Shown here: in pieces, positions 16,128 through 38,568 of the stretch
Position numbering within the stretch: the stretch's first letter is position 1
Layout of the letters: each line of letters starts with the position of its first letter
DNA from: Argopecten irradians
Lineage: Eukaryota; Mollusca; Bivalvia; Pectinida; Pectinidae
Direction of reading: 5' to 3'
Assembly (NCBI RefSeq): GCF_041381155.1
Contig: NC_091134.1
Location: 31,811,540 to 31,875,539, forward strand
Length of the DNA: 64,000 bases
Translations under genes and position numbers: made by a program
Notes under the pieces: model-generated
What the model was told of the DNA's origin: nothing
Seen by the model: the letters and a program-made list of their open reading frames with translations, nothing else
Databases searched by the model: none

Positions 16128-18893
16128 ATGGAACACCATACATATGACTGTATTCTTCAGGTCGGTGCTGATCAGTTTGTAGTTCCTAAATGTGTTGTTC
16201 GTAAAGTTTTCGGAACCAAAATAGACATGTTCCTTGACGTAACATCCGGAACACATAGGAAGTACGTCATAAGGAGACCAAAGGACTCGACCATGGCCCT
16301 GATAGAATACTGTTATACAGGTAATCTGCACATCCCTAAGAGTGTCTGTAAGGGTGAATTCCTGGCAGAAATGCGGTTCTGGGGATTAAAATACAAACTG
16401 TTGGAGTCGTGTTGCTATCATAAGCTCCGTGCCTTCTTAAACGACCAGAGAATGCTTAAAGGGTTCGAAACCATGTACACAGAATCAGAATACATATCCA
16501 ATCGGCATTCTGGAAACGGCAATACAAAGGAACGAATATGGGGCATTGTCAACTGTGATAGAAAATCAACATGTTCAAAGGTATGGTATGTCTTCTGTCT
16601 AAATGGCTTAAAATACCTGTTGTTAATGTATATGAAAGAATTACTAATGATTATTTTCTGTTTTCTTGGAGGATTATGAGAAAATGTATTTCTAGATAAA
16701 AGAGCAATGTATTGTTATATAATCAGTTATTGAATTAAAAAGCCGAGTCATCTTCATCAGAACACAATCGTCTGGAAAATGCATTTAAGAAAACTAAACA
16801 ATTGTCATGATTTAGGAAGAATAGTCTTTACTCTCAATTCCATTTATATCAGTACAGTAGTTGCACCGGTAGCTAAAATAATAGTAATATTTGATAATAA
16901 ATGGCAATTTGCATCGACCTCGTAGAATGGGTATAATTTCTTTCTTTAAGGCTCTTTGCGTTTCTGAAACAAAAACTAAAAGTTTATCAATAACAACCAA
17001 CTCGTACAATAAAACATCTGTATTTCGCTGTTTTACCGTGTAGGATGTAGTGATAATCAACTACTATTCGGTATTTAGGACGACTTAGGGAACATAAGAC
17101 GGCCCAAGTTATGAAAATTAGCATTTAATTGATCTATTTAAGATTTCTAGAACGTGGTAATAAATCGTATATGAACGGTAGGCTAAAACCTTTTGGAACT
17201 CTACAACATGATCAAAAAGTTAAGAACGGTTTCCGTAAAGGTATATACCTTTAATTACTACAGTCCAAATAAATACGTTTTATTGGAAAATGATTTCACA
17301 GTAAAATGTCATTTTCGTAATTTTTTGAATATATTATACTTGAAAATTGACGTTACTCTTTGATAGACCTTTTAAAACAAAAGTATATTTTTTCAGGTGT
17401 ATTTCTATGTGTCGACAACCATCGTGCTGCTGATGATCATTGCCCTCGCTCTAACAAGTTTAAAAAATGTACATACTATGGGTGAAGCTGAATTGAATTC
17501 CACTTCTGAATATAACAATTCTGTTTCTTCAAACTCTGTTTCTTCGAACTCTGTTTCTTCAAACTCGTCATATGATCACTCAGCTTCCCAGACGTCAAAG
17601 TCACAGTGTGATTCACATACTTCTGCCATTATTAAAGTTCTTTGCGAAAAATGCAGTCGCCGGGGGATTTCAGCGAGTAAAAATCGTAAAAAAATCAACG
17701 TACAGAATACAAATCTAAATTTGTTTATTCCGAAATGTTGTTATCCAGAGATCACGTTATCAGTCGTTAGCGAGGACAGTGCAACAAAGCCTCCTATTGA
17801 AAACAAAGATAATCATAATCCGTATGATTTGGCTAAGCCTCCAAAACCTCAGAATATGGACCATGCTAGAGATACTTATCAAATGAATGTCACACAGGAG
17901 TATTCTGTTACCAACGTTACATCTACTTCCGCTTCCGGTCAGATCTTAAGAGATAGCGATAGCCCCGATACAGAACAAACTTCATCACATTCTAGCAATA
18001 ATTCATTAAAAAACACATCGTACGATAAGTTTCCACTAAAAGATACTGGTATAGCCACTATTGTTACTAACACTGTCTCTAATTCAAAAGACAAACTTTC
18101 TTCAATCACTTCATTATGGAATATGGGTGGTAACACAGAAGTCGAATACATAATATATCATTACATGGAGTATGTAATAGAATTGTTCTTTGCTGTAGAA
18201 TTCGTTCTCAGACTTATCACGTGTCCGAATAAAAAAGACTTTATTAGCAGCTGTCTTAACTGGTTAGATATGCTCCTGTTCATTGACAGTTTCTGCAGAA
18301 TTTTGCTGGATTTACGAAGGGATGTCATGGACACAATGTCACTTGTGTATGACCTACTGCTTTACTTGCAAATGCTTCGGATATGTCGTCTTTTTCGAAC
18401 AATACAAAATGTCAAAGCATTTAAGATCCTTCGCTTTTCTCTCATTACTGGGATGAAAGACATTTTCGTCCTTGTGATGTACGTCATGGTTACAATGTGC
18501 ATTTTCTCCAACTTCATCTACTTTGTCGAAAGCAAATCCGATTTCCAAAGCATTCCCGCGACATGGTGGTGGAGCGTTGTAACCATGACAACGGTAGGAT
18601 ACGGGGATATGGTGCCAAAGACAGTGTTAGGGAAGCTGATTGGCTGTATCTGTACTCTGTCAGGTGTTGTGCTATTTTCTCTTATCATACCGGTCTTTGT
18701 AACAACATTTCACACTGCCTATGAATATGCAAAGGAGTGTCGCGTCGACGATGAACTTATTAGTGAACTTAGACTGCTAAATGTTAACCCAGACAAACAA
18801 ATAAAAAAATTGGCTGTGAAAAGGATGCGAAACCCCAATGGAAATATGAACCGGAAAGCTGGAGCAGAATGCATAGAAACTACTCAGATTTGA
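16128..18893 (+). CDS. KvA: voltage-gated potassium channel-like subunit with long S1-S2 ectodomain (649 aa)
   Basis: Exons 16128-16580 and 17397-18893, an 816-bp GT-AG intron, phase 0. Residues 7-105 form the T1 tetramerisation domain, with the HX5CX20CC zinc motif (H68, C74, C95, C96) of Shab/Shaw/Shal channels. S1 is about 152-174. An extracellular linker of about 225 residues follows, with several NxS/T sequons, three SVSSN repeats and cysteines C234/C237 and C265/C266. S2 keeps FxxE, and S3 keeps the Asp of LNWLD (charge-transfer centre). S4 reads LRICRLFRTIQNVKAFK. The pore has TVGYGD at about 550-555, and S6 has IIPVF where most Kv channels have PVP. The start is the first ATG of the T1 frame and matches the paralogues. 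This is a K+-selective plasma-membrane pore subunit by family; gating is unknown. It is followed 566 bp later by KvB. Confidence 0.93.
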
Positions 18894-19460
18894 AAATTTC
18901 AGGTTAGAAACAAAAAAAAACATGTTTTCGCTTACAGAATGTCATTATCTAAGATCGTCTAATTGGTTTTGATGACGTAGAGAATCGTACCCAATTACAA
19001 TATCTGTTAAATTAAATATTCACTTTAAAATAGTATCATAATTTTGTTCAAATGATATGCATCTACAATATCACCAAAACAATCCCAATAGATCAAACTG
19101 ACTATCGATTACTAATATCCATCGCTTCCATATAAGAGTCATGACATTAAGCGATTGCAGAGATTAGAACAATGTTTGTATTGGTAAATTGAAAGTTCGG
19201 TAGCCATTAACATTTTAAATATTTATGAATAATTTAGGTAAAGGTCGTCTATATGCCACTATTCACTATTGCTAGCTATTGACAACCGCTATAAGCATGC
19301 AACAATCAACCATATATCTCACTGAATGAGAACGTCTGTCTGAAGATTGCCATAGCTTGTCGATAACGTTTTTTGACGATGAAGAAACAACCAGATGCGT
19401 TTTAGTTGTTTTCTAACGAGACTTTGACAAAATTGTATTCTTACAACTTTAAATAACATT

Positions 19461-22167
19461 ATGGAATACAATGAGTGCACTCTCCAAGTTGGAGCAGATA
19501 AGTTTAAAGTTTCTACGGAAATTGTTCTCAAAATTTTTGGAGCAAAGATTGACTTGTTCCTTGACGTAACATCCGGAACAGACAGGAAATACGTCATAAG
19601 ACGACCGAAAGACACGACGATGGCCTTGATAGAATACTGTTATACCGGGGAGCTACATATTCCCCAAAGTGTCTGTAAGGGCACGTTTCTAACAGAACTT
19701 AAGTTCTGGGGGCTGAACCACAAATTACTGGAATCCTGCTGTTATCATAAGCTCTGTTCTTTCGTCAACGATCAGAAAATGCTCGAAGGATTCGAAAGAA
19801 TGCATCAAAGACCAGAAAACAACATTGCAGAAAAGGATAACAGCGTCAAAAGGCGAATTTGGGCCATTGTGAATTGCGATGGAAAGTCAAAATATTCAAA
19901 GGTCTGTTATTTCTTGAATGAGTTATTTCGTCAAAACGGTATCGAAGAAGAAGAAATGTGTTAAAATGATGTTAAAAAGCTTACGATCACATATTACCTG
20001 TCATATTTTTCAGACATAAGTAATTAGTATTTGCAATTTACATGCACTTTTAGCACCTACATACATAATGAAAAGGAGAATATATGAACATAAGATTCTT
20101 CATCATACAGTTGTCACTGTTGTTTTTCCCTATACAGAAAGTGTAAACAATTCTCTATAAGTATGCCTTTGGTGAAAATCTATCAATAAATGAGATCAGA
20201 AAAAAATAAAAATAAAGATACAGAGTATGTAGGGAAAACACATAAGTGACGAATACTCATACCCCACGACTGTAGATTTAGCTTCCATGATCTAATATAT
20301 CTGAATCCTGATTACTGTTAAAACGTTCTAAGTCAACAAGCATATGCTTTTAAGGTTTACTGTACTGTATGTGCTTTATTTATTGTTATATATTTACTTC
20401 CAGGCATACTTTTATGTGTCGACAACGTTTGTGCTATTGATGATAGGCATTCTTGCTCTTTCAAGCATGAAGGATGCACAGGACATCGGTGAACCAGCTG
20501 CCGAGACCATGGTAGAGGGTAACGGACATAATGCTACCTCTGCATCACCTACCAACGATTCCCTAGCCTTCAATGATCAACCAGAGACAGAAAGTCGACC
20601 CATGGTTACAAACAGTCCCAATGTGACAACTGGTATCAGAGACCCACCTGTTGTCTATCCGTCATTTCTTCTGGACGCCGACTGTGGTACATGTAGGACT
20701 TGCAACGCCACCACCCCGGGAAATGATTTGAATGATGAATTTAAAGTTGAACATACAAACGTTTTACTGCAATTTTCAGAATGTGCTTCGTTTATGTTAA
20801 TACAAGAAAGTGAACCTAGACCAGCACCAGGTGTCGAAGACTCATCTCAAAATTACTTCTATCCTCCACTTATCATACATATTAGGTGTGATCCGTGCAG
20901 GTCGTGCAACGCCACAATTCCGACACCAAAAATTAAAATTAAATTAAAAGTTGAACACACAGATATCATTATGAATGTCTCCAAGTGTGCTTCGGTAGTC
21001 ACAATACAGCGAACCCCGATTAAAATAGAACTAGCAGGTGCTGAGAAACAAGACAGTGAAGACGTGACCACCTTAGATCCTGATCATACAGAATATAACA
21101 ATAGTAGTTACCTTAATCAAACATATCGTTCAAATGAAATGGAATCTTCGACGAGATCCCTCAACGTTAAGCCAATCATCCATGGCATTGGTAATTTCAC
21201 TGCTATAGATATCCCTGAGAGAAGTAATCTTAGTGTTGGCAATTTCACTTCGAAAATAACGTTTTTGGAACACTTCCATACTCCTGTCATTAATTCTCAG
21301 GAAAAGCTGCTCATTGTATCGTCATCACAGAATGTAAGCAACATCAGCCTTATAGAGAGTGTTGTTTGTTATTACTTAGAACACGTCATAAATTCTTTTT
21401 TCACGATGGAATTTGTCCTCAGACTTATAACATGTCCAGATAAAAAGGAGTTTTTCCGCGGGATCTTGAACTGGTTAGACCTTCTCCTTCTTCTCGGCAG
21501 TTTCGGAAGAGTTTTGTTGGAATTACGGAGTGAACTGAGGAAAGTAATGGCATTTTTGTACGACTTTCTGCTATATTTACAAATGTTCCGCGTATTTCGC
21601 CTATTCCGAACAATAGAAAACATCAGAGCCTTTAAGGTCCTGCGTTACTCTCTCGTTACCGGGATTAAAGACATTTTCGTCCTTGTTATGTATGTCATGG
21701 TGACCATGTGTATTTTCTCCAACTTCATCTACTTTGTCGAGAATAAATCCGATTTTCCCAGCATTCCCGCGGCGTGGTGGTGGAGTATTGTTACCATGAC
21801 AACGGTAGGATACGGGGATATGGTGCCGAAGACAGCATTAGGAAAGCTGATTGGCTGTATCTGTGCTCTGTCGGGCGTTGTCCTATTTTCTCTCATCATA
21901 CCGGTATTTGTCACCACATTTCTCACCGCCTATGAATACGCGAACGGATCGCCGGCCGACGAGCCTAGGGAAGGTGACAACAATACAATTGTTTCTGTGA
22001 GCCTCAATGATACTAAACCTTTGACCCACGGTTGCCATGAAAAGGAAACGGGTTGCTTGTATAACATCGAAGTTCAATGTGAAGGTCATTCTGAAAACAT
22101 CAACAATTCCGGTGGTAATCCTAAACGGAAGTATGAGGAGACTACTCTCGAGACTACAGCCATCTAA
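19461..22167 (+). CDS. KvB: voltage-gated potassium channel-like subunit with duplicated cysteine module (734 aa)
   Basis: Exons 19461-19901 and 20404-22167, a 502-bp intron, phase 0. Domain order is as in KvA: T1 with the HX5CX20CC motif, S1 (about 148-168), a linker of about 295 residues, S2-S6, and a tail of about 70 residues. The linker carries two copies of a module: C241/C244/C247 then KVEHTNVLLQFSECAS, and C309/C312/C315 then KVEHTDIIMNVSKCAS. Each triple cysteine is followed by NAT. About ten further NxS/T sequons indicate heavy glycosylation. S4 reads FRVFRLFRTIENIRAFK, with a Glu in the charge series. The filter TVGYGD is at about 614-619, and S6 has IIPVF. The second-exon frame stays open 20 codons upstream of the acceptor to an ATG at 20344, but the CAG acceptor and the paralogues support splicing from T1. 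Confidence 0.93.
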
Positions 22168-23017
22168 TTAATGTTAACGGGTCATACATTAATTTAAATA
22201 CTGTAACTTATTCTAGTGAAGTCAAATTTTAGCGCGAATACACAAAATGCAAAATTATGACTAACTATAGCTAGTGGGAATATAAATGAGCTCAATAGAT
22301 AGTTCAGTACCGGAAATACCCTTTGACACAATTAAGCGCTGTACATGAATTAACGCTTCAAAGACAGTACGACTAGTGCTAAAATTTTACTAACACTAAA
22401 ACAAGTCTAGAGTATCAATGATGTATCAACTCGATTTTTAAAACTTTAAATGAATTACATTGTTCACTTTATATACATTTATAACAATAGGAGTTATTGA
22501 AAATCAATGAGTGATAAATGGGACTTGGATTTTGTGATCTTTAGCTAACTTAGCACACCATGAAAACTTAAAAACGATAGAACATCGTGTGATATATACA
22601 GAAAAAAATGCAATTTGACAGTTTTGAATGACACAAAATCATTAGATCGAGGACGAAATCACCAGATAATAAGAGGATTTGTATTATAGAAAATAATTTG
22701 CTCGCCTACGTTTTCTATTCATCATCCAAAGCACCAAGTTCAGAATATGATATGCATGGCCGGTATAGTCGGTTAAAATTAGGACGCTTACTTTGCAGGA
22801 CTATCTGATCTTATTTGACTGGTGTTGTCTCTTAAGCCGGATACGACTGAACATCACTGTTTTATTAATGTATGCTATGGTATTTTAAATGTATTTTATG
22901 ATATATGACACTTTATTAAAATATCATTGTATTGTTGTATTGTAATATATTGTTACACTGACTAGGATATAATTATGAACGTTATGCTATTCATGGTACA
23001 TTGTCTTGTTATTTTAG

Positions 23018-23172
23018 ACTGTGGACCTGCGATAAACCGAATGCCGATACTCCGGAATAATCAAATCCGAGTCGAAATGTCAATAAATGGAATTGATTAT
23101 TGACTATGTTGCCGAAAATTCGCCAGTCCGGAAGATTCCATTAACTTTTCGGGTTATCGATGGTCCACCTGC
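23018..23172. mobile_element. pogo/Tigger-like MITE
   Basis: The left end GACTGTGGACCTGCGATAAA pairs imperfectly with the right end TTATCGATGGTCCACCTGCA. Inner blocks ACTCCGGAAT and CCGGAAGATT also face each other. There is no coding capacity. Confidence 0.55.
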
Positions 23173-23227
23173 ATTAAATGTTGAAATTGATCACTAATTA
23201 AACACGCCACATTGTACATATTATTAT

Positions 23228-23572
23228 AAGCTTCTCGCACCTTTTTCATTTTGGTTTTCTTTTATTTAAAGAAATATGTATCATGATATTCTTCAATTGT
23301 TTTTGTTATGTTATTTGATCTACACAACAAACGTATGATGTATTGTGTATACCGTGCAGCATGTATACTAAAGTTTGAAAAATGATTATACAAAATAAAA
23401 TATGGTGGCTGATTTCTGACATTTTTGCCTTTTCTCGTTGTTCGGCGTGTTGTCGTCTTAAATTCACAAAAACACGAAAAGGGCAGAAAATTAACACGAA
23501 AAGGCGCGGTTTTGAACTGATTAAGCCGACAGCTCACCGAAAAGGCGAAATGTCAGAAATCAGCCACCATAT
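23228..23572. repeat. dispersed element copy 1 with inverted 'ATGGTGGCTGATTT' ends
   Basis: From AAGCTTCTCGCACCTTTTT onward it matches 24165-24570 in order. Within it, 23401-23572 is an inverted repeat: TATGGTGGCTGATTTCTGAC against GTCAGAAATCAGCCACCATA. It has about two units of the CACGAAAAGGGCAGAAAATT repeat that is expanded in copy 2. Confidence 0.75.
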
Positions 23573-24164
23573 CTCACGCCAACATATTATCTATAGTCAT
23601 GATCGACAAGTGTAAGTAAATTTCAGGCTCATCAATTAGTTCGAGTGTCAAAAATGCATATATGTATCTATAACTACTAAAGCGACATTTATAAAATAAG
23701 AATCTTTAAGTTCAATGTTTTATAAATGTGCTAACTTAAACCTTTAAAACTCCACGTTTTATTTGAAGTGCTTTGTTGCTTTTAATACTTTATGCTAACT
23801 ACGACCTCACCCCTTTTAATCTTTCTAGCCCTCTATAGCTTGATAAATTGTTAATAACTGACTGTATAAACTAATAATACAGAGGCGAAAGCGCAAAATG
23901 ATTTCAGAAGAATAGGAAAAGTAAGATTTCAGTCGCTCCTTATAATCATGCTATGGTGACAGCCAGAAAAATACTAATATCCTACCTTCAACATGTTAAT
24001 TAAGGAGCATTCAGATTTAGCATATTAAAGTCATTTCAAGGCGCCATTCATTGTTGCAAAATGCAAAAAAATGTCCTCAGACTTAATTCTTTCAAACAAG
24101 ACTTCTTTACAATATACTATATATATATATATATATAATCTATTAAAACTGTATATAAGATTAT

Positions 24165-24570
24165 AAGCTTCTTGCACCTTTTTGAATTTTTGTATCTTTT
24201 TGTTTAATGAGATATGTATATGATGATTTGCTCTAAATGTTGTTTTTGTTATGCTATTTGACCTACGTATAGTGTACACTGTAAACATATATTGTCCTAT
24301 GTATACTGTGCAGCATGAATACTTTTAAAAGTTAGAAAAATTTGAATATTAATTTTCTGACATGATTGATTTTTCGCGTTGTTCGGCGTTCTGTCGTCTT
24401 AAATTCACGAAAACACGAAAAGGCCAGAAAATTAACGCGAAAAGGGCAGGAATTTAACACGAAAAGAGCAGAAAATTAACACTAAAAAGGCAGAAAATTA
24501 ACACGAAAAGGCAGAAAATTAACACGAAACGGGCAGAAATTAACACCGAAAAGGCACGGTTTTAAACTGA
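24165..24570. repeat. dispersed element copy 2 with expanded 22-bp minisatellite
   Basis: Diverged duplicate of 23228-23522: AAGCTTCTTGCACCTTTTT, then GTTGTTTTTGTTATG, GCAGCATG and GTTGTTCGGCGT in the same order. At 24412-24557 the CACGAAAAGGGCAGAAAATT unit is repeated about six to seven times, against two in copy 1. Confidence 0.75.
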
Positions 24571-24639
24571 TTAATATCTCATCTTTTATTCATAATATCC
24601 TACGAGCTTTGCCCGCCTCGGAAAACCATTTGTTTAAAG

Positions 24640-24727
24640 CCGCATGATCCGTATCTTTCAGGGTCCGTAAAACAAACAATGACAAGACATGGTATAATAG
24701 CCCTAAAAAGTTATGAACTTTCCCAAA
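24640..24727 (+). repeat. left arm of a 3.6-kb-spaced inverted repeat
   Basis: The segment with GCCGCATGATCCGTATCTTT and AGTTATGAACTTTCCC is the reverse complement, with changes, of 28134-28219 (GGGAAAGTTGATAACTTTTT ... AAAGATACGGATTATGCGGC). The arms could be ends of one element or two independent insertions. Confidence 0.6.
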
Positions 24728-24889
24728 ATTACAAGTCTAGAAAGTTAAGAGGTCCAAAGATATAAATATACAAAATTTCATTTTAGACTTATGCGCGGTC
24801 CGACAGAAAGTCAAAAGTTAACGCCTCCAAAGCTTAGAAATGCTACTTTGCGCATGTCCGGAAATAAAAGTTGTTTACCGCAATGGAGC

Positions 24890-26260
24890 GCTCGCTGGCT
24901 TAGCATCAACTGTTGATTCGAAGTGAATAAGGAAGTTATTTAAACTAAGAAATGTTGTGAATTGCTGAGAATATTATATGGAAACGAATTCGAGCTATGA
25001 CAACAACTATGATTTGTGAATGATCTACCAAAACCACATAAACTGACTTCTCTTCGTCTCTATAGGTGAGTGGGGCCCCAAAGGGGTAACAGTATATTCT
25101 ATAAGTGTTTGGTCGCTTTTTGGAATTGGTACCGTAGTAAAATAGAGATTAGAAATCAGAAAAAGTGTTGATAAATTGGGAAACATATAACAGATTTAAT
25201 CTTGGATTACAACAGAAGCATTAATAGAGTCGTATTATACGCGTTTCCTTAAAAGATGATCACATACATGTAGCTACTGTTACAGGCTTACAGCGCCAGG
25301 AGTGTGATATCTTTTCCGATATCTATTTGTGTATTTATGTATATCAGTGATACATATCCTTTTACTGTATGCTATGGATATTACTTTATTAAAGAAGCCA
25401 CTTTCAAACTTACTTCATTAGTGCTCGTGTGTGTAAAATTGTATTTTTTTAGACTTACAGTCACTTAGTCACGTACTCGTTATCCTTTCTGCTGGTCTTA
25501 ATTATATAAAATTCACACCAATACATCATAAGTGGGTTAAGTAAAGAATAGTAATTGACTTTTTTAAAATATGTATTATATATTATGTCCAATACATTTA
25601 GGCTACATAAATTCTGGCACTAATTAGTACCATTATTCTTCACATGAAATGCCTAGACCCCTGTAATTCAAGAAATGACTAACCTAGTATCTAGTGAGGT
25701 TTGATTTTGATAAACGTGTTCAAAAAATGTGTAATTGTTATAAATTTGTGTTGACAGAAAGCAATTGGAACTAGTTTGTTTTACATGTAGGCTTACACTG
25801 AAAGATTATGTACATGCATGTATACATTATTTATCTATGTACATAACTGACATTTACTCCATATTTTCTTTATAGAATGTATGGGACCTTCAACCAGATG
25901 ACAGAAGTGCAAGATGTGATGGCAGCTCGCCCAAAAATAAAGGGAAAAACAAACTACATGTTTCTCTGAGATCAAACTGACAGTAAAAAATAAAGCCTGT
26001 TTGTAATGTACCCATTATGAACCAGAAAGAAATTATTGTCAAGAAGGAAGGACAGAACAAACCTAGCATAATTCTTTACTATTATCACCAGGATATTTTC
26101 AAATAATTTATTTCTTCACACAAATGAAAAAAGGAATAATAATGATTATTGCATGTTTACATACCTAGTATGTATAGCTTTTGAATAATTTATATGGAAC
26201 AAAGATGTAATTCCAATTTATGAAAAATTAAACCAATTAAAATAAAATATGTCATTTATC
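24890..26260 (+). ncRNA. possible two-exon spliced transcript, coding potential minimal
   Basis: A strong donor (ATAG then GTGAGTGG) at 25065/25066 and an acceptor (TTTCTTTATAG) ending at 25875 flank an 810-bp stretch. The second segment starts with an ATG at 25877 that opens 30 codons (MYGTFNQMTEVQDVMAARPK...) to TGA at 25969. It is followed by AATAAA-type signals near 25988 and 26240. No family is recognised, so it may be a long noncoding RNA, a remnant of a gene, or chance signals. The 5' boundary is a guess. Confidence 0.25.
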
Positions 26261-28133
26261 TGAGTTGTTTAATTATGTTGTGTTCATTTTAGAAATGTTC
26301 AAATACAGAAAATAAATAGCAAACAAGACTGGAGCTAGATCAAAGGTTATTTGGGTCAAAAGTCAGTGTCAAATCTCAAGATTTTGGCTCTATAGATATA
26401 CATATATCCCTATGTGTAATAAAAAAAATCTTGTTGTGTAATACACAGATTGCACATATATATAAGAATATCCATATATCTGTAGAGACAATAGCCTGTG
26501 ATGCATGTTGTTAAATTGCATTATTCATTATTGACTATTTTAAGTTGCAAAGTTTTGATTGAATTAGAAAGGAAATAGACTGACAATAACTTCTAATTAG
26601 TCCAGGTCAATCAAGGTCTACATGTACAAGCTCTTAGCAACTTCACTTAGTGTTTGGAGCAAGATCACACTAAAGGAATTAGGATTGCTTGAATATAAAA
26701 CAATAAACTAACAAAATACAACTAATAAAGTTAGATTTTCCACTAGGTTAGACTATATACATACTAAAAAATGAATTTTACTGCAATTACTCTGATGACA
26801 TGAGAATCACATGCTATGGTCAGCTTATTTACTACTGGATGCTATTTTGAACTCCAGTCATTTTTTTATTGACTTCAAATTCAATCAATGTACAATATGT
26901 GTACATGTACACTATACAATGTATATGAATGTGCTATTTGTGCATGAATATGATTGTATAAGAAACACCTAGGTCTTTCATTATACATGTTTCTGATTCA
27001 TTTGATTCAGAGGCAAATTCACGGCTGGACATCATATTATATGGTTCATTAACAAGCTATCATGTACATGTACATGTACATCACAAATTTAACTAAGGGA
27101 GCTGTCTTCATTATCTACACAGAAAATATATACATAATTGCATGTTAGACATTTAGAACTTTTAACACACATTAAACCGCCTTATTGCAACCTCAACCCC
27201 ATTCTTTTTTTTATTTTTTTTAAATTTCTGTAATCCTTGAAATCATATAACCAAATGTTTATAGTTTCACCAGAAATTTATCATCATGTTTTTAACGAAC
27301 ATGGAGCTTTTCCAACATAAATATCAGAAATATACATACAATAACATGTATTAAGTTTTATACTCGTTTATGGCGGTACATGGTGATTTTTTAACTAATA
27401 GATATGTATACATGTATACACATATGATATTGAACAAAAATGCATATTATGTCAAGTTTGCTCTCCGTGCATATTTTACTTGATTTATTATTATATTTCA
27501 TTTGGACCTTTATAAAACAAGTTATATGGTTATCCAAGGCAAGTCAAATATCGTCTGAGATATTTATTTTAAAAAATATCACCAGAGATTTCCATGTAGA
27601 TAACCATTTTTGTCTCTATCTAGTACGATGTGTCTTGTCTATTTCATTATTTATCAATACCATTATTTATATATCTGGTACATTTTTGTACAATTTATTA
27701 TCTTGTCTAGTACGATGTATGGTATCGCAACACGTATTTTATACGAAGTTTAAATACCATTCCCACAAAAATCCCTCCGGTGGCCCCCGGAAATTAGGCA
27801 AAGCATAGTCAACCGATCGCCGTATTGTAAACACTCAAAATGACCGAATGGAAGTATTGTTTACACGACGATAATATATATATATTGTTCTGGGGGACTC
27901 TTTAACTTCATCACATAACAAAAACATTCACTTGTTCATGATAAGTAACAAGTTCTTCTGTAGAAGTTCCTGCTAACATGAGAGACACACTTTTGACTGG
28001 GCAAGCCATTTCGTTTGGTCTGGAAAGTCACGTGATCGTCTACGATTGAAAATGAATATTCAAACACTCTGGATATCGAACTTTTAATCATTAATTTCTT
28101 TTGAACTCGGGACTTTTTGGGTGTGTTATTAGG

Positions 28134-28219
28134 GGAAAGTTGATAACTTTTTATAAGATATGTACCCTTATTTTCTTTTGTTGATTTACGGACACTGAAA
28201 GATACGGATTATGCGGCTT
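28134..28219 (-). repeat. right arm of the 3.6-kb-spaced inverted repeat
   Basis: Reverse-complement partner of 24640-24727, sharing GGGAAAGTT, TTTACGGAC, CTGAAAGATACGGAT and ATGCGGC in the expected order. Confidence 0.6.
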
Positions 28220-28837
28220 TAACTGGCATACGATAACATTCATACGATGGTTGCATTTATATGGTTTCTTGGATGAAGGACACTTGCGCCTTTGTTATGT
28301 TAGTGATTTTCATTTACACGGAGAAAATTTAATATCTGACTATAAGAATAACTATTATACCTCAAGTGAGAATCCTGCATTCGGATTGGTCGAGATACAT
28401 TTGGCATTTCAAACTCTCACATGGTAGTTAGCATTAGAACAATAAGAGACAATAGATACGTTCGTAGCAACCACTAGCAATGGGTGATAACATGTTTTGG
28501 ATAGTTGAAAATATTAACCGCCTGAAAAAGATGCGCACTCGTTTCTTATTCGTAGCCATCTTTGGTGGTTTGAAGCGACGCTTCCAAATCAGACTTGGAG
28601 CTTTTTATTAATAATTTTGACAAATTAGTCTGTTTATCTTTTTTTTTTTAAATCAAGTCCAGAGATTTACGTTTACACATTTTCGCTTACTATCGAAACA
28701 AAAATTCATTGAGATTTATAAAAAAAAACGTTAAAGATGTTCCCCGTCGACAGAGCATAAACGGTACTCATTTGAACAATAATGGTTTTTAATCGTGTAT
28801 ATATATATATATGTTTAATTAACACGAAAAATAATAT

Positions 28838-28962
28838 ATACATACTGCCTGTATTAGAGGATGACAGTGTCTAATGTCAGCCCGATGATGTCACTTGAGG
28901 AGAAGCCGAGAGTGACAGTGATATTCCGAGGGGTGTCACCCTCTAATGCAGGTAGTATTTAT
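28838..28962. mobile_element. foldback element of about 125 bp
   Basis: The left arm ATACATACTGCCTGTATTAG...GATGACAGTGTC faces the right arm GGGTGTCACCCTCTAATGCA...GTAGTATTTAT. A related fragment with GTGTCACCCCTCGGG lies near 31600. Confidence 0.65.
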
Positions 28963-29612
28963 TTTACAAGCTAACCGATGTTTACATGATATATAATTCA
29001 TTTTTCGCAATTTTCAGTCATGTGGACATGACGTACATAGCAATTATTTTACATGATGAATAATTTGCGTGTCCCTGTGCTTGGGCTGAGGTAACCAATA
29101 TTACATTTCACGATATCTGAAATCACCTATCTTAGTTAATATCTGATGATGTATGATTTAGTATTTCCTAATAAAAAAAAACTTTCATAACTGTAATGTA
29201 CATATAGCTGTGGTTTCAACATGAAGAAAAGTGGAAAAAATGATAATTACACATTGATCACAAAGCACAAAGTTTTTTGTTGTTCATTAATATACCTGGT
29301 ATATGATAATCTTTGTTTGTTTGTTATTTTATTGATATTTTGCCGAAATGTTCGAACGTCGGCGAAGACACCCCTAAGGGGAATGGGTTGTATTTCGCCG
29401 AGACGAAGCACTGGCCGGAGGCCCGTTATGATACGGAGAAAAACAGTTTTTATTTTATGACGTTACCATGGAATATCAAAGTTATGTGGTGTGAGAAATT
29501 GAACAATACTATTTTTAGATTACATCTTTCGATCGAGCCTACTGCGTATGCATCATAAAATTATATTAAGTTGAAAAATCACGATGACTGCATGGTGGGG
29601 TATAGTAGTCGA

Positions 29613-30078
29613 TGTCGGGAACCAATCTCTCCCAGGGTGCATTGCGGTCCCCACAATTTCACCTCTGTAAACGGCCCAGCGAATTTTCAAGATTCTTGAA
29701 AAACGTATTTCGAACATATCCTACATTCTTAAATACATATTGCAAGTTTCCTTTTGTATCATTTTCCTGTAAACAACTGTCAGTTCTGACATTACTTCAT
29801 TTGATCATTCAATACCAAACAAAACAATAATGGATTATTTTGCGGATACATTAGATTCACTTGTAAGTAAATAGTCACAATTTGCATACGACGTCCGCCG
29901 TTTCAAAAACAATAACTGTGACGTCATATGTAAAGGGGGCGCAATGCATTATTCAATCGTCATGACGTAATATTCTGTGACCCGAGATCAACAGACGGTC
30001 AGTTCGATTCGTGAGCCGTTGACAGAGGTGAAAGTGGGGACCGCTATGAACCCTGGGAGAAATTGGTCGGGAAAAGGT
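29613..30078. mobile_element. non-autonomous DNA element of about 465 bp with about 75-bp inverted ends
   Basis: The left end, with CTCTCCCAGGGTGCATTGCG, GTCCCCAC and TTTCACCTCTGT, is mirrored at the right by ACAGAGGTGAAAGTGGGGAC and CGCTATGAACCCTGGGAGA. No transposase frame lies inside. Confidence 0.75.
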
Positions 30079-31127
30079 CCGATTTGATACCTCCAACTCA
30101 AATATAACAAAACATAATTGAATGAATGCTATTTCTGAAACTTTTTGGACTAAAGATAGTTCATGTGAATGTTTAAGTCTTCAAATATTGCTTCTTTTTT
30201 AATGAATAAGAAGAGAAAAAAAAAAAAAAACACAAAAAAAAACACGAAAACATCACGATTACTGCTCTCGACCAGTACCGCGGTTTTATCGGTTTTCGAC
30301 GTCGAAAGACCAAAAAAGATTTTTTACACACAATGTCAAACATATTCAATGCAAATCATTAATTATATGTTTCAGATGCATGTTACTGATGTTTTTGTGC
30401 AATATTTCATGAATTTCATCCACTAAACGAAGCACTGTATCCACAAACGCTGTGCATACTGTTTCTTTTTGTCAAAAAGACGTTTAAGGGGAAAAATGTT
30501 TCAAGAAAAACTTACACTATTATTTCAAACTATGTTATGCTGTATATGAGTGCAAATTGCAACCATAATACCACAAACGAATACTTATTCCTTCAAAACG
30601 CCAGCTTGTAACGTTGAATTACCCGGGCTCATAGAGGACTAAAAACTGACGTGACTGGGATGTTCGGGATCAATCATCAAATTTAGAAATGGTAATCAAA
30701 ATAAAGAAATTAAACATTTATTTACTCGCATCGTAAAATTTTCCCAACGCAACTGTTACAGGAAATTCTTATTAATTGGTATCGAGCCTGATTAATCTCG
30801 ATGTTAGTGCTGAAAATATCTTATTTATTGATATTGTTCCGCTACTTTTGTTGAGTTGAAATTCGCAAATTCGAAGGGCGTCAGAACGCTTTTTTTCAAC
30901 CGGAATCACAGTAGTGATAAAGACATTCCAAGTGAATATTTGCATTGGGGGAACAGGGACTATAAAAATGATTTTCTCAAAAAGTAAGTAAATTAAAATA
31001 CATTTATTTTGCTGGAACTCTATAAGAATCATTCCGATTTCAGAACAGTTAGAATTATGAAGATACCTCTAACAGTATTATTATTTTATATTATGTAAGT
31101 TAATTATTATGTAAAATAACTTCTTTT

Positions 31128-31345
31128 GCCTTTGATCTATGCGCAATCAGTACTTCATTCCATAGAGGACATAGTGCCACGGATTTTTTTAAGGAGACAA
31201 TTAATTATTATAATATTTTTTATCTCGAATTTTTGAATGGTGGCAATGGTGTAAAGTAACTTTTATGACTGAAGAAAAATACTAATTCGTCTGCTCATTT
31301 TTGAATAGAGAAAAAATACTATTTGTCAGCGGTGGAACATCTCTA
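31128..31345. repeat. MITE family Y partial copy upstream of psi-KvC
   Basis: Has the left terminal block (ACTTCATTCCATAGAGGACA then TAGTGCCACGG) and the inner TTTGTCAGCGGTGGAACATC block of the 12647-12942 element. Confidence 0.65.
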
Positions 31346-32784
31346 AGGTTTTAACAAATGTAAGACAACCAGTATATTTTTGCCGAATGTCAATTGTGAG
31401 TATTCTTTTTTCATTGCAATGGTTATAAGCGCTACATAATGGAAGCTGATATGTTATTTTACTGCCGATGGTGAGTTTTCGACTTTTGCTAAAATAAGTA
31501 AAATGGTTCAATAGATTTCATATACTTGAAAATTAGTTTTGTTTCTAGACTTTTAGTATAATACAATAAACAACACTTGTATGAGAAGGTGCGGTGCTTA
31601 GTGTCACCCCTCGGGATACCACTGTCACTGAAAGTGCGGTAAATTTCCTTTCAAAATCATCCTAAACAACTACATAAAGTGCCGTCAGTAAGACAATAGC
31701 AGCCTCGTTATTACAAAATTATACGAAAAATATATTTTCTCATGCATTATGCATAAGCGAGACCTTCGCTGCTATTTCATTGGCTAACCAAAATAAAAAG
31801 TTGTTACGCTCCTTTCGGATCACCTCGTCATTTACCTTTGGCGTAGCTCACTCACCAAAGACACCCGAAGTGAAAATGGTATGATGATTTTCCAGAACTT
31901 ATATTTTGTTCGCTTATATATGTTTTTTCACCTTCTTTTTTCAATATTTTGAGCAAGAATACAATAATTTCATTAAACTATATATTGATTAACACAGTGG
32001 ATGTCTTCAGCCGGCCATAAACTACATGTGGTTATATGCTGACATAAGCCATCATTTTTCGTTTAATAAATTTGTCTGAAGATGGTCATAGCTCATTGAC
32101 AACAGCGTTGGTAGTAGAAGATTTGGATAAACAAACTTGTCAACTTCAATATTTTTTCATTTTTAAAAATCAATCAACTTTCACGATTTAAAAGATATGG
32201 ATTGTACAAAGTATATTCTCCAGGTTGGTGCTCACCAGTTTAAGGTTCAAGCAGGAGACTGCCCTCAAAATACTTGGTTCTAAGATTGTGATTTTCCTTG
32301 ACGTGACGTAGGAGGTGACCTCCGGTATAAAAAGGACATACGTCATTAAGAGACCCAAGGACTCGACCATAGCCGTGATACAATACTGCTATACGGGAAA
32401 ACTTACGGGGCATCTCTAAGAGTGTCTGTAAGGGTAAGTTTCCGACAAAACTTAAGCTCTAGGGGCCTGATTCACACGTACACTGTTGGAATTCTACTGC
32501 TATTACAAGCGCTGTTCTTTCGTGAACGATCAGAAAATGCTCGAAGGGTTCATTTTTTTGTTCTTAAAACCAGAACTCAGTATAGTATGATTTATGCCCA
32601 TTACCATATTATACAAATATCGACTTATTTTCAAGTGGATACGGTGATTTATCAACTCGAGAAAGTGATATTACCCGAGGCCGTAGATATGTTTTATTAT
32701 ATAGCATTAACATAATGTAAACCATTTGACTACATGTATATGTACATGTTTATTCTTCTTCATGATATTGAGCAACCCCTCGCA

Positions 32785-32842
32785 ATGGTCGAGTCCTTGG
32801 GTCTCTTAATGACGTATGTCCTGTTTATACCGGAGGTCACCC
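32785..32842 (-). repeat. inverted duplicate of part of the psi-KvC T1 exon
   Basis: ATGGTCGAGTCCTTGGGTCT...CGGAGGTCACC is the reverse complement of about 58 bp within 32312-32370, with only one visible mismatch. It lies about 415 bp downstream of its source. Confidence 0.85.
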
Positions 32843-33465
32843 TAAAAACAGGTCGATATCTGTTTTATTATATGGCATTTACATGATGTTAACCTTTTCA
32901 CTACAAGTATTTGCACATGTATTTCCTCCTCTTCAAATATTGACACTCTATAGTCCTGTTGAATAATTTCGAAGAGAAAAATGAAGGCTGATAATATTTA
33001 TAAACTAGAGAAAACACCACGTAATACATTTTACTTTTTTTTGAAAAATCTAAAAAAAAAGTACACACAAATATTTTCAGTGTCTCATTGATTCCAGTAA
33101 ACCTGCTGCTCCCCGACACATCTCGCTGAATGATGACGTCACAATAGATATTTGACGTAACGGAAATGTCCTCTACACTATATTTGGGTACGACCTGGAC
33201 TCATTGGAATTTTATATCAACCTGTGAAGCGATTTTGACGTCATAATGCAAGATTTCTATATTTTGGTACGACCCGGGGGTTTTGGAATCTTTTATCAAC
33301 CTGGAATGACGTCAAAATGCATAGTTCGGAATTTTCTGGTGGAAATCGTGTTTTGTTATATGACTGGTGCTTTTGCTGTATTTTGATTGGCCAATACGTT
33401 TCTCAGAAGTATTCATCAACTGCGATATCAACCCCGAAATCGGCGGCAAAAAGCACGCGAGGTTA

Positions 33466-33585
33466 CTGGACTGAGTCCAATCTGATTAAAATCAGCTGTT
33501 TGATACTCCGCTTACTACGTGCTCCGGAGCACGTAATAAGCGGAGTATCAAACAGCTGATTTTAATCAGATTGGACTCAGTCCAG
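33466..33585. repeat. 120-bp spacerless palindrome, one mismatch
   Basis: The 60-bp left arm (CTGGACTGAGTCCAATCTGA ... ACGTGCTCC) is immediately followed by its reverse complement. The centre GCTCC/GGAGC lies at 33525/33526. One position differs (ACTACG against ATTACG). Weaker pairing (CGCGAGG...) extends outward on both sides. Confidence 0.92.
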
Positions 33586-33970
33586 ATACCTCTCGCGAGT
33601 CCAGTAACCTGTGTCAAAAATAGATCGAGGAAAACTCCCTTATTCAATGACGTCGGGATAATCAATTGTGACGTCAATTTTATAGTCGGCAACATATATG
33701 GCGGAAGGCAGCAAGTTTACTGCGATCAACGGTGAAAACTGCAAACTTCAATTTATGGAAAACGTTCAAGAAAGCCTGACGGGCTGCAGTTGATACAATA
33801 TTCCAGTTCTACCAGTCTAAACCGTTAGCAAGAAACATTTGGATATTTACCATATACTACATGTAATTGCTTTTGTAAACAGAAAGTTTTCAAATAGTTT
33901 TGTTTTTTGTGTAGTTTTAAAAGTCTTTTTGAAGAGTCGGGTTAATATCATGTAAGTGTCATATAATAAA

Positions 33971-34113
33971 ACAGTTATCGACCTATTTTCAGGTGGATAC
34001 GGTGAGTTATCAACCCTCGAAAATGATATAACCCTCGGTCTCTGGCCTCGGGATATATCACTTACTCGGGTTGATAACTCACCGTATCCACCTGAAAATA
34101 GGTCGATAATTGT
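33971..34113. mobile_element. foldback element with 45-bp arms
   Basis: The left arm ACAGTTATCGACCTATTTTC...GAGTTATCAACC is mirrored at 34069-34113. Diverged half-copies are at 32617-32706 (CGACTTATTTTCAAGTGGAT) and about 32850-32876. All lie in the region that replaced the middle of psi-KvC. Confidence 0.8.
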
Positions 34114-35419
34114 TTAGTATCGTGGCGAGGAAGTGTAGTTTCAGCCAATCAGAAGCGAGCAAAACACACAGTCATATAATAAATGAAATTATCAGTAGGC
34201 ATGCAAACGTGTTGGGCTACTCTCCTTTATATTGGTAACGCGGGACCTTAGTGTAATACACTGATGTAATACAGGAGTTATCTTCTCCTGACCACACTTC
34301 CGGTAATGCTTGAAGAGTTATTATTGGAGTTACGGATTGAACTGATTCAGGCTGTACAATTTGTTTACGACCTACTCCTTTATTTACAAATGTTCCGTGT
34401 GTTTCGTCTCTTACAGGCGATAGAAAATAACAGAGCATTTAAGATCCTGCGTTGCTCTCTCGTTACTGGAATGAAAAACATCTACTTTCTAGTAGTGGTA
34501 ACCATGTGCATTTTCTCCAACTTTGTCTATTTTGTTAAAAACAAGTCCCATTTTCCCAGCATTCCCTCGGCGTGGTGATGGAGTATTGTAACCATGACGA
34601 CCGTATGATACGGTGATATTGTGCCGAAGACAGTGTTCGTACAGCTGATTGGCTGTATCTGTACTCTGTCAGGCGTTGTCCAATTTTTCTTATTATACCG
34701 GTCTTTGTCAGTATTTTCCCGACCACCTATGGATGCGCAAATGGATCAACGGACTTCGGACATGGGAACGAAGTTTTCAATAGAAAATCTTCACTGAATC
34801 GTGATGTCCAAAATGTGCCCAAATTCATACAGGTGTCCGTATACTTAGTAAGCATTTTACTTGAAGACAGGAAATGTTATTTAGTATCATCAATAGTAAG
34901 AACAATTTAAAAATATGTTGAGTTGAATGAAAAATTATACACTTTTAAAAATGGAAATTTCAATGTAAAATGTAATAAAAGACAACCGTTCAAGTTATTT
35001 AGAATTTTTAGTATCGAGGTTTACTAATGGATATCTTTTTTTTCTTTTTTTTTTCTTTCTGAAACCATGGATTGAGTACATTCACCAGTAACCAAAATAA
35101 GTGTATCAACCTTATATAAATCTATTTTAAATATGCATGATTTTAATCAGTTGTATATCTATGTCATTAATGGGTTCTATACGAGTAATTTAAATGTTGC
35201 AGTAAGCACGGTCCCTGTCTGCTCACTATTCCTTGCGGGCATGTGTATATAGACTGAAACATGTATCTATAGGTACAGATGAGGAGCGAAACATCGAGAT
35301 AGTAAGGTCGATTATGTTATATCAGAAGAATTCAAATTGGAAACAGCAGAATCTCTTCGCATAGAATTTTCTGAATTTGTTTTCATTAACAGTACAGAGA
35401 CATTGAAAAAATAAACATC

Positions 35420-38400
35420 ATGGAATGTAAAGAGTGCATTCTTCAGGTAGGAACTGATCAATTCGTAGTTTCCATGGAAACTGTTTTCAAAACATTCGGA
35501 TCAAAGATTGAGATGTTTCTTGACGCGACGTCAGAGAAAAACACAAAATACGTCATAAGGAGACCAAAGGACTCGACCATGGCCCTTATTCAATACTGCT
35601 ATACGGGAAAGCTACACATCCCACAAAGTGTATGTAGGGGTGAGTTCCTGACAGAACTTCAGTTCTGGGGGCTGAAGCACGGATTGCTGGAATCATGTTG
35701 TTATCACAAACTCTGTTCTTATTTGAACGACCAGAAAAAGCTGGAAGGGTTCGAAAAAATGCAAGCGAAATCAGAAAACAGAAAAACTGGACGAATTCTT
35801 GGTATGAAGGAATGCATTTGGGGCATTGTTGACTGTGATCGAAAATCAAAATATTCAAAGGTTTGTTATCTGAGTTGTGGCTTTAAAAATATTACAAATT
35901 ATCATATTATAATGTATTAATCAATTTTTCTTTATTATCAGCCAAAATCTGGCTTTCTGATTGGCCGATTCATTTTTACATACAACTTTGAACAAAAATC
36001 CGAAAATGGCGCAGAAACCTGAAATTCTGTTCGCAAATAATTGCGAGAATCCACTCGGGTTCACAAAGTTTGCAAAATTTTCTTTCATACCCCGATAGAA
36101 TTAAAAAACAAATCACATCAATGCTTAAATATAATATAACGATATCTAATATTATCATTGTATTGTATTGCAAGTATTTTTTAGTTTATGAACAAACAGA
36201 ACTGCATGTAATTAAAGATGCTACACCACCGATGAATTGTAATTTATATCTATTAAAACAGGAGTAGACGAATCAGTGTTTTTCTCAGTTAAAAATACTT
36301 ACTTAACATTATTGCCATCATTGAAAAGTTTTATATCCCTATTTTTCTTCAAAATTAAAGTATTTAAAATAAACAAAGGGACAATTCAGTGAGACTAATT
36401 ATGTTATCCACAAAGCATAATATGCAGTAAATGTATTGTTCTACATCCCGAAAAAAAAAATCCATGTCAATATGCCCTATATGGAATGAGGTACTAATTG
36501 CACAAACAACAAAAATAAAAATAAGATTATTATCATCATTAGGAAGCTTTAAAAGAGAAAATAGGATAGTTGTTATGGACGTATAAACGTATTTTGTTTT
36601 CCCAGTTTAAGCCTGTGTAGATCTATCACAAAGTGAAATATCAGTTATGTCTCTCTTAGAAATATTTTCTTTATCTGTCATTTAATTTAAAATATGCTTA
36701 CACTGTTTCATTTTTCAAAAGTGAAACGTGCAATAAAAATGCAAATATACACCAATTTAAACTAAATTAGACCAGTTTGATATTCAATATAGAAGGTATG
36801 GATTTTGAAATGTCCTTAACAATTTGTATTTCTATTTATGTTTTTAAAGTGTTTGAAAAAGGAAAGGAAACACTTATTACATATATCCAACTAAAAATAT
36901 TTTAAATATATAAACTTTTATATAGTGTTTCAGAAATTGTGTCCTAATATAACTTTAAACATCAAAAATCCTTTTTAATTAATTATTGATTAATTGATTG
37001 AATTTATTTAATTATTTATTTTTAAACATGAAAGATAACTAAGATAACTTTATCATTGACATCTAAACATGTGTGTGATTCCAGTCTCACCTGATGAACA
37101 ATATTTGTAGGTGTATTTCTATGTGTCGACCTGCATGGTCCTGTTACTGATAGCTGTCTTGGCCCTGACCAGTATGAACCAAGCACAGGATAACAACCCA
37201 TTGAATACCACATCACCCATTAGAACCACAACCGAGACTTCAACTTCAAGCTCTGGTTCGCCTTCGACATCGGGATCGAACAACTACCGCTTACCATGTC
37301 CGAAAAAAAGTGACTGCATGACCAGGACAACACCGACACCCCAGGTAGTGACTTATACACCAATGTCTATCAAGGTAAATTGCGTATCATGCAGTTTATT
37401 TACAAGCAGTCTGTCCCCATCTAGAAAAGCAATCGAGAATAAAGTCCAAAATACAGAGGTACAACTATACATCCCGAAGTGTTGTCGGGCGATTGTGAAA
37501 ATGCCAATGGCGAGACCACCAAAAGCCATACGTGTAGATGCCCCGATTTCCGACCAGGACTATCAGAATAATGGAACCTCTGACAACACCAGCAAAGGGG
37601 CAAATCAATTCCCAATAGCAGCCTCAAATGGTAGTACAGGTGTTGTTCAAAATGTGGCAAATAACAAAAAGATAAAAATAGGGAACTTAACAGATCCCCG
37701 TACCAAAAGTTTCGGGACGAACATAATGACTATGTATCAGATTACAAAGAACAAACTGTCCTCATTCACATCAACATTACGACAAACAAACGTAGCTGGT
37801 CAAGAATTCATAGTATACCATTCCATAGAAGACATCATCACGGTGTTCTTTACACTCGAATTCGTCATAAGGATCCTGACCTGTCCAAACAAAAAGGAGT
37901 TCTTCAGCAGACTTTTGAACTGGTTAGATCTCGTTCTGCTTTTTGGCAGTTTTGGGAGAATTCTTTTAGAAAATTGGAGACATCTCTTAGAAGATTCGAT
38001 TGTTGTGTACGACCTACTCCTTTATTTACAAATGTTCCGCGTGTTTCGTCTTTTACGGACAATAGAAAATATCAGAGCCTTTAAGGTCCTACGTTACTCT
38101 CTTGTCACTGGAATGAAGGACATAGGCGTCCTCGTTATGTACGTATTGGTAACAATGTGCATTTTCTCCAACTTTATCTACTTTGTTGAAAACAAGTCCG
38201 ATTTTCCCAGCATTCCCGCGGCCTGGTGGTGGAGTATTGTTACCATGACGACCGTAGGATACGGGGATATGGTGCCAAAGACAGTGTTAGGAAAGCTGAT
38301 TGGCTGTATCTGTGCTCTGTCAGGTGTTGTCCTATTTTCTCTTATCATACCGGTCTTTGTCAGTACATTTCTCACTGCCTATGAATACGCGAATGGGTCA

Positions 38401-38568
38401 CCAGATGATGATCATATAAAGAGCGAATCAGCACGCATCACACCCCTTGAAGAAAGCCCAGACAAAAATGTTAAAACGTGGCACTGCCCGAAGGTTTTAT
38501 TTTCCAAACACCAGGAACAGGGGTCTGCTTGTCGTGTGTTTGTAAAACCACAGCTTCCTCCGTATTAG
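35420..38568 (+). CDS. KvD: voltage-gated potassium channel-like subunit with long S1-S2 ectodomain (632 aa)
   Basis: Exons 35420-35860 and 37111-38568, a 1250-bp intron, phase 0. T1 carries the same HX5CX20CC motif. S1 is about 148-168. The linker of about 210 residues is Thr/Ser-rich at its start and contains C238/C241 (NCVSC) and C271/C272 (IPKCC), matching the KvA module. S2 is FTLEFVIRILTCPNK and S3 keeps LNWLD. S4 reads FRVFRLLRTIENIRAFK, the filter TVGYGD is at about 528-533, and S6 has IIPVF. The short tail is divergent. From S4 to S6 it is nearly identical to KvB, including at many silent sites, while the linker cannot be aligned outside the cysteine module. The intron contains a partial family Y MITE. 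Confidence 0.93.
36020..36126. repeat. fragment related to the 714-866 foldback
   Basis: Shares the GCGAGAATC, TTCACAAAGTTTGCAAA, TTTCTTTCA and CACATCAATGCTTA blocks, in the same order, with the right half of the 714-866 element. It lies in the KvD intron. Confidence 0.5.
36213..36512. repeat. MITE family Y partial copy in the KvD intron
   Basis: Contains CTCAGTTAAAAATACTTACT, CATTATTGCCATCATTG, then TCCCGAAAAAA...TCCATG...GCCCTATATGGAATGAG, which matches the right half of the 12647-12942 element. Confidence 0.65.

Follow-up and report, generated by a model that had tools for sequence, protein, structure and literature searches.

An apparently molluscan clade of voltage-gated potassium channel genes with variable, often enlarged S1-S2 linkers, represented by a three-gene cluster in the bay scallop Argopecten irradians

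The loops of voltage sensors are usually treated as short connectors. An exception is found among the voltage-gated proton (HV) channels, which have neither a pore domain nor the T1 tetramerisation domain of the voltage-gated potassium (Kv) channels. In the HV3 channels of molluscs, the S1-S2 loop is described as very large and hugely variable in length; a single bivalve species may have as many as eight such channels, and the one from Aplysia is reported to conduct protons (PMC10377628). In vertebrate Kv1 and Kv3 channels, the linker at the same topological place carries one or two N-glycans, with reported effects on gating, kinetics or expression at the cell surface (PMC10178682, PMC12455010). 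No Kv channel with a greatly enlarged S1-S2 loop is described in the titles and abstract openings of the open-licence literature searched. Here we examine a cluster of three such genes in a window of 64,000 nucleotides from the bay scallop, Argopecten irradians (G000:C1:31811540-31875539, genome of 846 Mb). An original prediction, made from the letters of this DNA, had proposed three intact Kv genes with long, heavily glycosylated S1-S2 linkers that arose by the grafting of an extracellular domain, perhaps serving in ligand sensing, adhesion or the evasion of toxins, roles that are conjectural.

The three genes, here termed KvA (positions 16128-18893 of the window), KvB (19461-22167) and KvC (35420-38568), all lie on the plus strand and are intact two-exon genes. 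Their splice junctions, 16580/17397, 19901/20404 and 35860/37111, are all of the GT...AG type and in phase 0, and the spliced proteins are identical, letter for letter, to database entries P0005 (KvA, 649 residues), P0004 (KvB, 734 residues) and P0001 (KvC, 632 residues), each of which is labelled 'uncharacterized protein [Argopecten irradians]'. According to Pfam, in all three genes the first exon encodes T1 and the second everything from S1 to the stop codon, including the S1-S6 segments, the pore with its TVGYGD filter and the C-terminus. Thus, the BTB_2 domain is found above cut-off in exon 1 of KvA (16128-16580, E=3.3e-07, donor AAG/GTATGG), KvB (19461-19901, E=8.6e-08) and KvC (35420-35860, E=2.3e-09), and the Ion_trans domain in exon 2 of KvA (17397-18893, E=1.1e-30), KvB (20404-22167, E=3.5e-31) and KvC (37111-38568, E=2.2e-31). 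The gene structures proposed originally are thereby borne out at the very junctions named. The T1 domain of KvA contains an HX5CX20CC motif, present in all 13 clade proteins tested, which we take to be the zinc motif of Kv2-4.

With the end of S1 set by eye for each row and a constant end point ahead of S2, the S1-S2 linkers comprise 229 residues in KvA (17460-18146), 297 in KvB (20467-21357) and 211 in KvC (37174-37806), with plus-strand coordinates derived from this measurement; the original reading had been about 225, 295 and 210 residues. A looser convention gives 235, 303 and 217 residues, over which a frame would remain free of stop codons by chance with probabilities of 2e-8, 1e-10 and 8e-8, respectively, given the local base composition and independent bases. 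For comparison, 36 further Kv-like loci of the same genome were considered (covering 36 of the 38 genome matches outside the window), 32 of which were measured, L029, L036, L037 and L040 being excluded. At the 26 loci that fall outside the clade defined below, the loop spans 10-72 residues (median 32), in agreement with the original premise that ordinary Kv linkers are a few tens of residues long, while the six loci inside the clade have loops of 372, 133, 132, 115, 106 and 49 residues. The loop excess is a property of the family, though some members are without a long loop.

The linkers were also said to be packed with N-glycosylation sequons (NxS/T), and this description holds for KvB, which has 14 compared with 4.2 in shuffled linkers, and fails for KvA (7 compared with 6.4-6.6) and KvC (5 compared with 4.8). 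Since the linkers are rich in Asn, Ser and Thr and only that of KvB exceeds its shuffles, the impression of packing is partly an effect of composition, and sequon density is ruled out as a defining feature of KvA and KvC. Even so, with 5-14 sequons and additional small cysteine-containing domains, the cluster differs from the vertebrate Kv1 and Kv3 linkers with their one or two N-glycans (as reported in PMC10178682 and PMC12455010).

The linkers contain 5, 8 and 6 cysteines in KvA, KvB and KvC, respectively. A block of 52-57 residues recurs in all three linkers and is duplicated in KvB. It consists of two cysteines three positions apart, followed by a V..T pattern and then by Cys or Cys-Cys, the residues C, C, V, T and C being invariant in all seven copies from three scallop species. 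The copies of the cluster are located, on the plus strand, at 17616-17771 (KvA), 20656-20817 and 20860-21021 (KvB copies 1 and 2) and 37354-37512 (KvC). The two KvB copies align with a local score of 125, the best of 2000 shuffles scoring 45, and the KvA-KvC (94) and KvB2-KvC (66) pairs likewise score above every shuffle. The KvA-KvB2 pair is marginal (48, best shuffle 47), and two pairs fall below their best shuffle, namely KvA-KvB1 (29 vs 36) and KvB1-KvC (40 vs 42). The duplication in KvB is visible in the DNA as well, where 36 nucleotides at 20683-20718 and 20887-20922, at a spacing of 204, are 75% identical. Repetition on a smaller scale is seen in the KvA linker, which contains a 15-bp in-frame tandem repeat of 3.1 copies encoding SVSSN units (17520-17566, plus strand).

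With the S2-S6 region as query, 1031 candidates yielded 53 proteins at E<=1e-30. In a first tree, which included the scallop paralogues, the cluster belongs to a clade of 30 of the 57 rows with support of 100/100; in a larger tree with relatives from other animals, the clade comprises 32 of 82 rows, again with support of 100/100, and is separate from the Shaker, Shab, Shal and Shaw rows. Not used in the first tree were L029, L036 and L037 as partial or duplicated sequences, P0001, P0004, P0005 and P0018 as duplicates, P0022, P0023 and P0028 as partial sequences, and also P0008, P0013, P0025 and P0032-P0054; the larger tree added P0022, P0025, P0028 and P0032-P0054 except P0041. An organism is named for 21 of the 32 clade rows, and all are molluscs: Argopecten, Pecten, Mizuhopecten, Ylistrum, Tegillarca, Saccostrea, Pinctada, Mytilus and the snail Nucella. 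A search with the full-length proteins, in which seed words were restricted to the first 500 residues, gave eight matches, seven of them scallop family members (Argopecten, Pecten, Mizuhopecten) and the eighth, P0008, a weak match to an unrelated channel. The proposal of a channel family that is specific to a lineage and has a large extracellular segment beside the voltage sensor is thus supported. Its reach is wider than supposed, since the cluster forms a single branch within a bigger clade with variable loops, molluscan wherever the organism is named.

The variation in loop length across this clade is considerable, from 47 residues in Pinctada (P0027) and 75 in Saccostrea (P0014) to 475 in Tegillarca (P0011) and 482 in P0015; the Pecten and Mizuhopecten relatives P0002, P0003 and P0006 have linkers of 233-262 residues. 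The loops of P0011 (Tegillarca granosa) and P0015 contain 28 cysteines each, in stretches of 335-338 residues that are 51% identical. Neither loop has a Pfam match above cut-off, and the 28-Cys array had no counterpart in a profile search of PDB. The loop of P0030 from Mytilus contains what appear by eye to be repeat-like stretches. Another clade channel, L009 (4749-6686), is encoded on the same chromosome as the cluster and has a 372-residue loop without cysteines. CxxC motifs occur in the loops of P0022 and P0028, which adjoin the scallop cluster in the larger tree with weak support (92/50).

A single origin of all long loops was rejected when 15 long-loop rows, a group picked after the tree had been seen and including the partial P0007, were forced together (approximately unbiased test, p-AU 4.9e-05). 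With a cut at 190 residues, long and short loops require four changes on the tree, no direction being assigned; three lengths entered this count rounded (470, 470 and 410 for 475, 482 and 415), which does not affect their class. Taken together, the two results indicate that loop size shifted more than once. One short motif recurs despite this variation: a lysine followed by L, I or F is found 8-18 residues before the start of S2 in 27 of the 32 clade loops (the exceptions being P0021, L013, L014, P0024 and P0031) and in 5 of 26 others, compared with a mean of 6.5 and a maximum of 14 of 32 in shuffles, for a window picked after the data were seen.

The transmembrane core has the hallmarks of a Kv channel: in addition to T1, Ion_trans and TVGYGD in all three genes, there is a charged S4 with its charge-transfer partners in S2 and S3. 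In an alignment to scallop Shaker, S4 charge positions one and two are occupied by L and Q in KvA-C, positions three to five by R, and the S2 pattern E...F..E and the S3 aspartate are kept. The voltage sensor retains the equivalents of R3, R4, K5 and K7. Two positions stand out in the clade. Gln at the second charge position, R2, is present in each of the 30 clade rows compared and in none of 27 others. In the S6 gate, the first proline is replaced in all 30 clade rows, and the second is kept in all 30, the gate reading IIP in KvA-C; outside the clade, the first proline is kept in 19 of 27 rows, replaced by Thr in six and by Ser in one, and not covered in one.

The cluster was compared with the classical Kv subfamilies. 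A phase-0 intron just before S1 is present at 18 of 18 loci that are neither Shaker nor Shal in type and at none of five Shaker- or Shal-type loci (23 of the 36 fetched loci were scored). The presence of this intron in all three genes, the IIP rather than PVP gate, L at R1, Q at R2 and the separate position in the tree rule out Shaker (Kv1). Shab (Kv2) and Shal (Kv4) are ruled out by the 100/100 clade, which excludes L022, L044 and, on the Shab side, P0025, P0035, P0037-P0040, P0043 and P0045. The closest in plan are Shaw (Kv3) and the scallop Shaw-like loci L015, L017-L019, L021 and L028, with which the cluster shares T1, S1-S6, the phase-0 intron before S1 and the K+ filter; these loci have loops of 31-64 residues, shorter than those of the cluster, and the clade differs from them in its invariant Gln at R2. 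The first tree places the clade beside the Shaw-like loci at 60/29 only, and in the larger tree the Shaw rows L024 and P0044, the latter from an insect, group separately. An HV3-type channel is ruled out by the S5-pore-S6 region. The HV3 channels are nevertheless the nearest parallel, by the description of their enlarged S1-S2 loop only (PMC10377628), the cluster encoding K+ channel subunits of the tetramer type.

With regard to the origin of the linker, the proposal of a grafted domain found no support. The linker sits within one exon, and none of the three gene models places an intron next to it; for this reason, exon shuffling is not indicated. The repeats described above point to local duplication, and matches outside the family were absent from searches that were themselves insensitive. 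Thus, Pfam found only BTB_2 and channel domains above cut-off in the six exons and 10 relatives, and the mini-domain matched no PDB chain in a profile search extended to E=10. When KvB residues 215-370 were searched against proteins, the only one of 97 candidates returned was KvB itself, and a search of the scallop genome with the KvB linker likewise gave KvB alone; since neither search recovered KvA or KvC, little weight can be placed on these negatives. As part of the explanation favored below, and with the same reserve, we suggest that the linker may have grown by local duplication in place, inside one exon.

In summary of what is observed, the cluster proteins have T1, S1-S6, a K+ filter, a loop of 211-297 residues with a mini-domain, residues other than Arg at R1 and R2, and a gate that has lost its first proline. 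The explanation that we favor, while placing it just short of an even chance, is that these are genuine Kv subunits of a subfamily, molluscan as far as its organisms are named, in which the S1-S2 loop may serve as an extracellular head that tunes gating. T1 would assemble four subunits and so set four heads around four voltage sensors; since T1 is expected to assemble four, a homotetramer would expose about 840-1,190 extracellular linker residues. Each head would be anchored at the tops of S1 and S2, where drag, glycans or a bound partner might shift the balance of the sensor and thereby tune the opening of a channel that is either homomeric or mixed with other subunits. The heads would act on voltage sensors with few charges. 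S1-S2 loops are indeed reported to bear glycans and to bind modulators that alter Kv gating (PMC10178682, PMC10244465, PMC12455010). The loop itself would have been enlarged in place by intra-exon duplication, its sequence diverging quickly between paralogues.

Several observations weigh against a gating head. The sequon numbers of KvA and KvC are no higher than their composition yields, and the window first chosen for the K-[LIF] motif (14-26 residues before S2) gave 14 of 32 loops, where shuffles gave a mean of 7.6 and a maximum of 15. Arg is likewise missing at R2 in 13 of the 27 non-clade rows (one of which has Lys), so that only Gln marks the clade and an S4 with fewer charges is widespread among the scallop channels. 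Between paralogues, the intracellular C-terminus (16-30% identity; dN, the nonsynonymous divergence, 0.64-1.14) and the pre-S2 stretch (19-39% identity) roughly equal the linker in divergence; with the C-terminus equally free, rapid change is no peculiarity of the head. Finally, the altered S6 gate suits subunits that are unable to open alone.

The last point leads to an alternative that we rate somewhat below an even chance, namely that the proteins are silent regulatory subunits that join other Kv subunits via T1, the head forming a new outside surface of the mixed channel. It should be noted that this alternative is compatible with a gating head, and our estimates for the explanations are therefore not meant to sum to one. 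Cnidarian and vertebrate regulatory subunits (R-subunits) are described as having an altered S6 gate and lineage-specific expansion (PMC9989356), as has the clade, and this resemblance makes silent subunits a serious possibility; the likeness is one of pattern, and the term S1-S2 is absent from the main text of that paper. Silence agrees with the first gate proline being replaced in all 30 clade rows, and possible partners exist in the genome, with its 44 Kv-like matches, some of them fragments. On the other hand, the second gate proline is kept throughout, the first is also replaced outside the clade (the six Thr and one Ser among 27 rows), and the K+ filter and T1 are intact. Moreover, in mammalian R-subunits of the Shab type, gate changes are described as a marker rather than a cause of silence (PMC9989356).

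The main rival to a gating head is that the linker is near-neutral filler, a mostly disordered and drifting spacer in a loop that tolerates insertions, with no task other than to leave folding undisturbed; we judge it less likely than not. Between paralogues, S2-S6 is 71-81% identical (T1, 67-68%), with dN of 0.12-0.17, dS (synonymous divergence) of 0.91-0.96 and dN/dS of 0.12-0.19, indicative of purifying selection. The linker is 20-30% identical with dN of 0.86-1.24, close to the dS of the core and matched by the divergence of the C-terminus, its own dS being saturated in two of three pairs and its alignment uncertain. Such figures are what filler would give, as are a Ser+Thr+Pro content of 26-33% in the KvA-C linkers, the in-frame micro-repeats, the highly variable loop length across the clade and the lack of any domain match for the linker in Pfam, PDB profile and protein searches. 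Filler does not readily account for the five invariant residues of the mini-domain in seven copies from three species, nor for the 51% identity over 335-338 residues between the 28-Cys linkers of P0011 and P0015. K-[LIF] before S2 in 27 of 32 loops (in the window picked afterwards) and sequon counts above those of shuffles in 10 of 19 clade loops tested (P<0.05, uncorrected) argue in the same direction. The divergence pattern fits rapid drift about a mini-domain that is conserved.

A more far-reaching reading, which in our opinion is unlikely, takes the S1-S2 loop of this molluscan Kv branch to be a free slot for extracellular domains, filled separately in each lineage, the channels acting as K+ channel receptors whose gate would be controlled by an external partner bound next to a voltage sensor of few charges. 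The scallop Cys mini-domain, the 28-Cys array of the ark clam and the tandem repeats of the mussel would be such fillings.

Quite improbable, in comparison, is the idea of an arms race in which the head protects the voltage sensor against toxins or other antagonists. Peptide modulators are reported to bind S1-S2 linkers (PMC10244465), and the linker diverges quickly against a conserved core, as evasion would predict; the saturated dS in two of the three pairs and the equally fast intracellular C-terminus deprive that divergence of its force, and the sequence contains no pointer to an antagonist. An artefact, with the linker DNA being either a missed intron or a product of faulty assembly, is hardly credible: the gene models rest here on genomic sequence, but the frame is open across all three linkers, the database models are identical, and the Pecten and Mizuhopecten relatives have linkers of comparable size.

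A clade that repeatedly resizes its S1-S2 loop, and that departs from the other Kv rows in S4 and gate too, would constitute a natural experiment on how forces from outside couple to voltage sensing. In addition, the names 'Shaw-like', 'subfamily A' and 'subfamily B' in bivalve databases cover, among others, a channel type of its own.

Two further pieces of the family lie between KvB and KvC on the plus strand and belong to a broken fourth copy. A T1 remnant at 32255-32587, whose frame break was judged by eye, is 42-50% identical to the T1 exons of the three genes used as tblastn queries, and an S3-S6 remnant at 34348-34763 (locus L008) is at most 77% identical to KvC over 34363-34695 and contains two TGA codons. 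The same tblastn did not find S1, the linker or S2 of this copy. The region also contains a reversed T1 fragment at 32781-32840 and, by eye, two inverted-repeat stretches at about 33470-33610 and 33980-34110.

Other Kv clusters are present elsewhere in the genome. Four tandem Shaw-like genes (L017, L018, L019 and L021; G000:C6, about 32.86-32.89 Mb) are very close to one another in S2-S6 and have loops of 31-35 residues. A second, diverged Kv cluster (L031, L033, L035, L036 and L041; G000:C9, 22.17-22.40 Mb) has a PxA rather than PxP gate in its four aligned members (L031, L033, L035 and L041), and L035 and L036 are nearly identical. Within the window, overlapping tandem repeats of 104 and 220 bp occupy 7990-8476, and four tRNA-Thr (CGT) genes lie on one strand within 3.5 kb (48519-51988), three scoring 69-71 bits and one 51. 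A 20-bp satellite, GGAGGGGACAATAACGATGA, of about 181 copies and extreme strand skew extends from 60346 to the window end at 64000, where it creates long artificial open reading frames.

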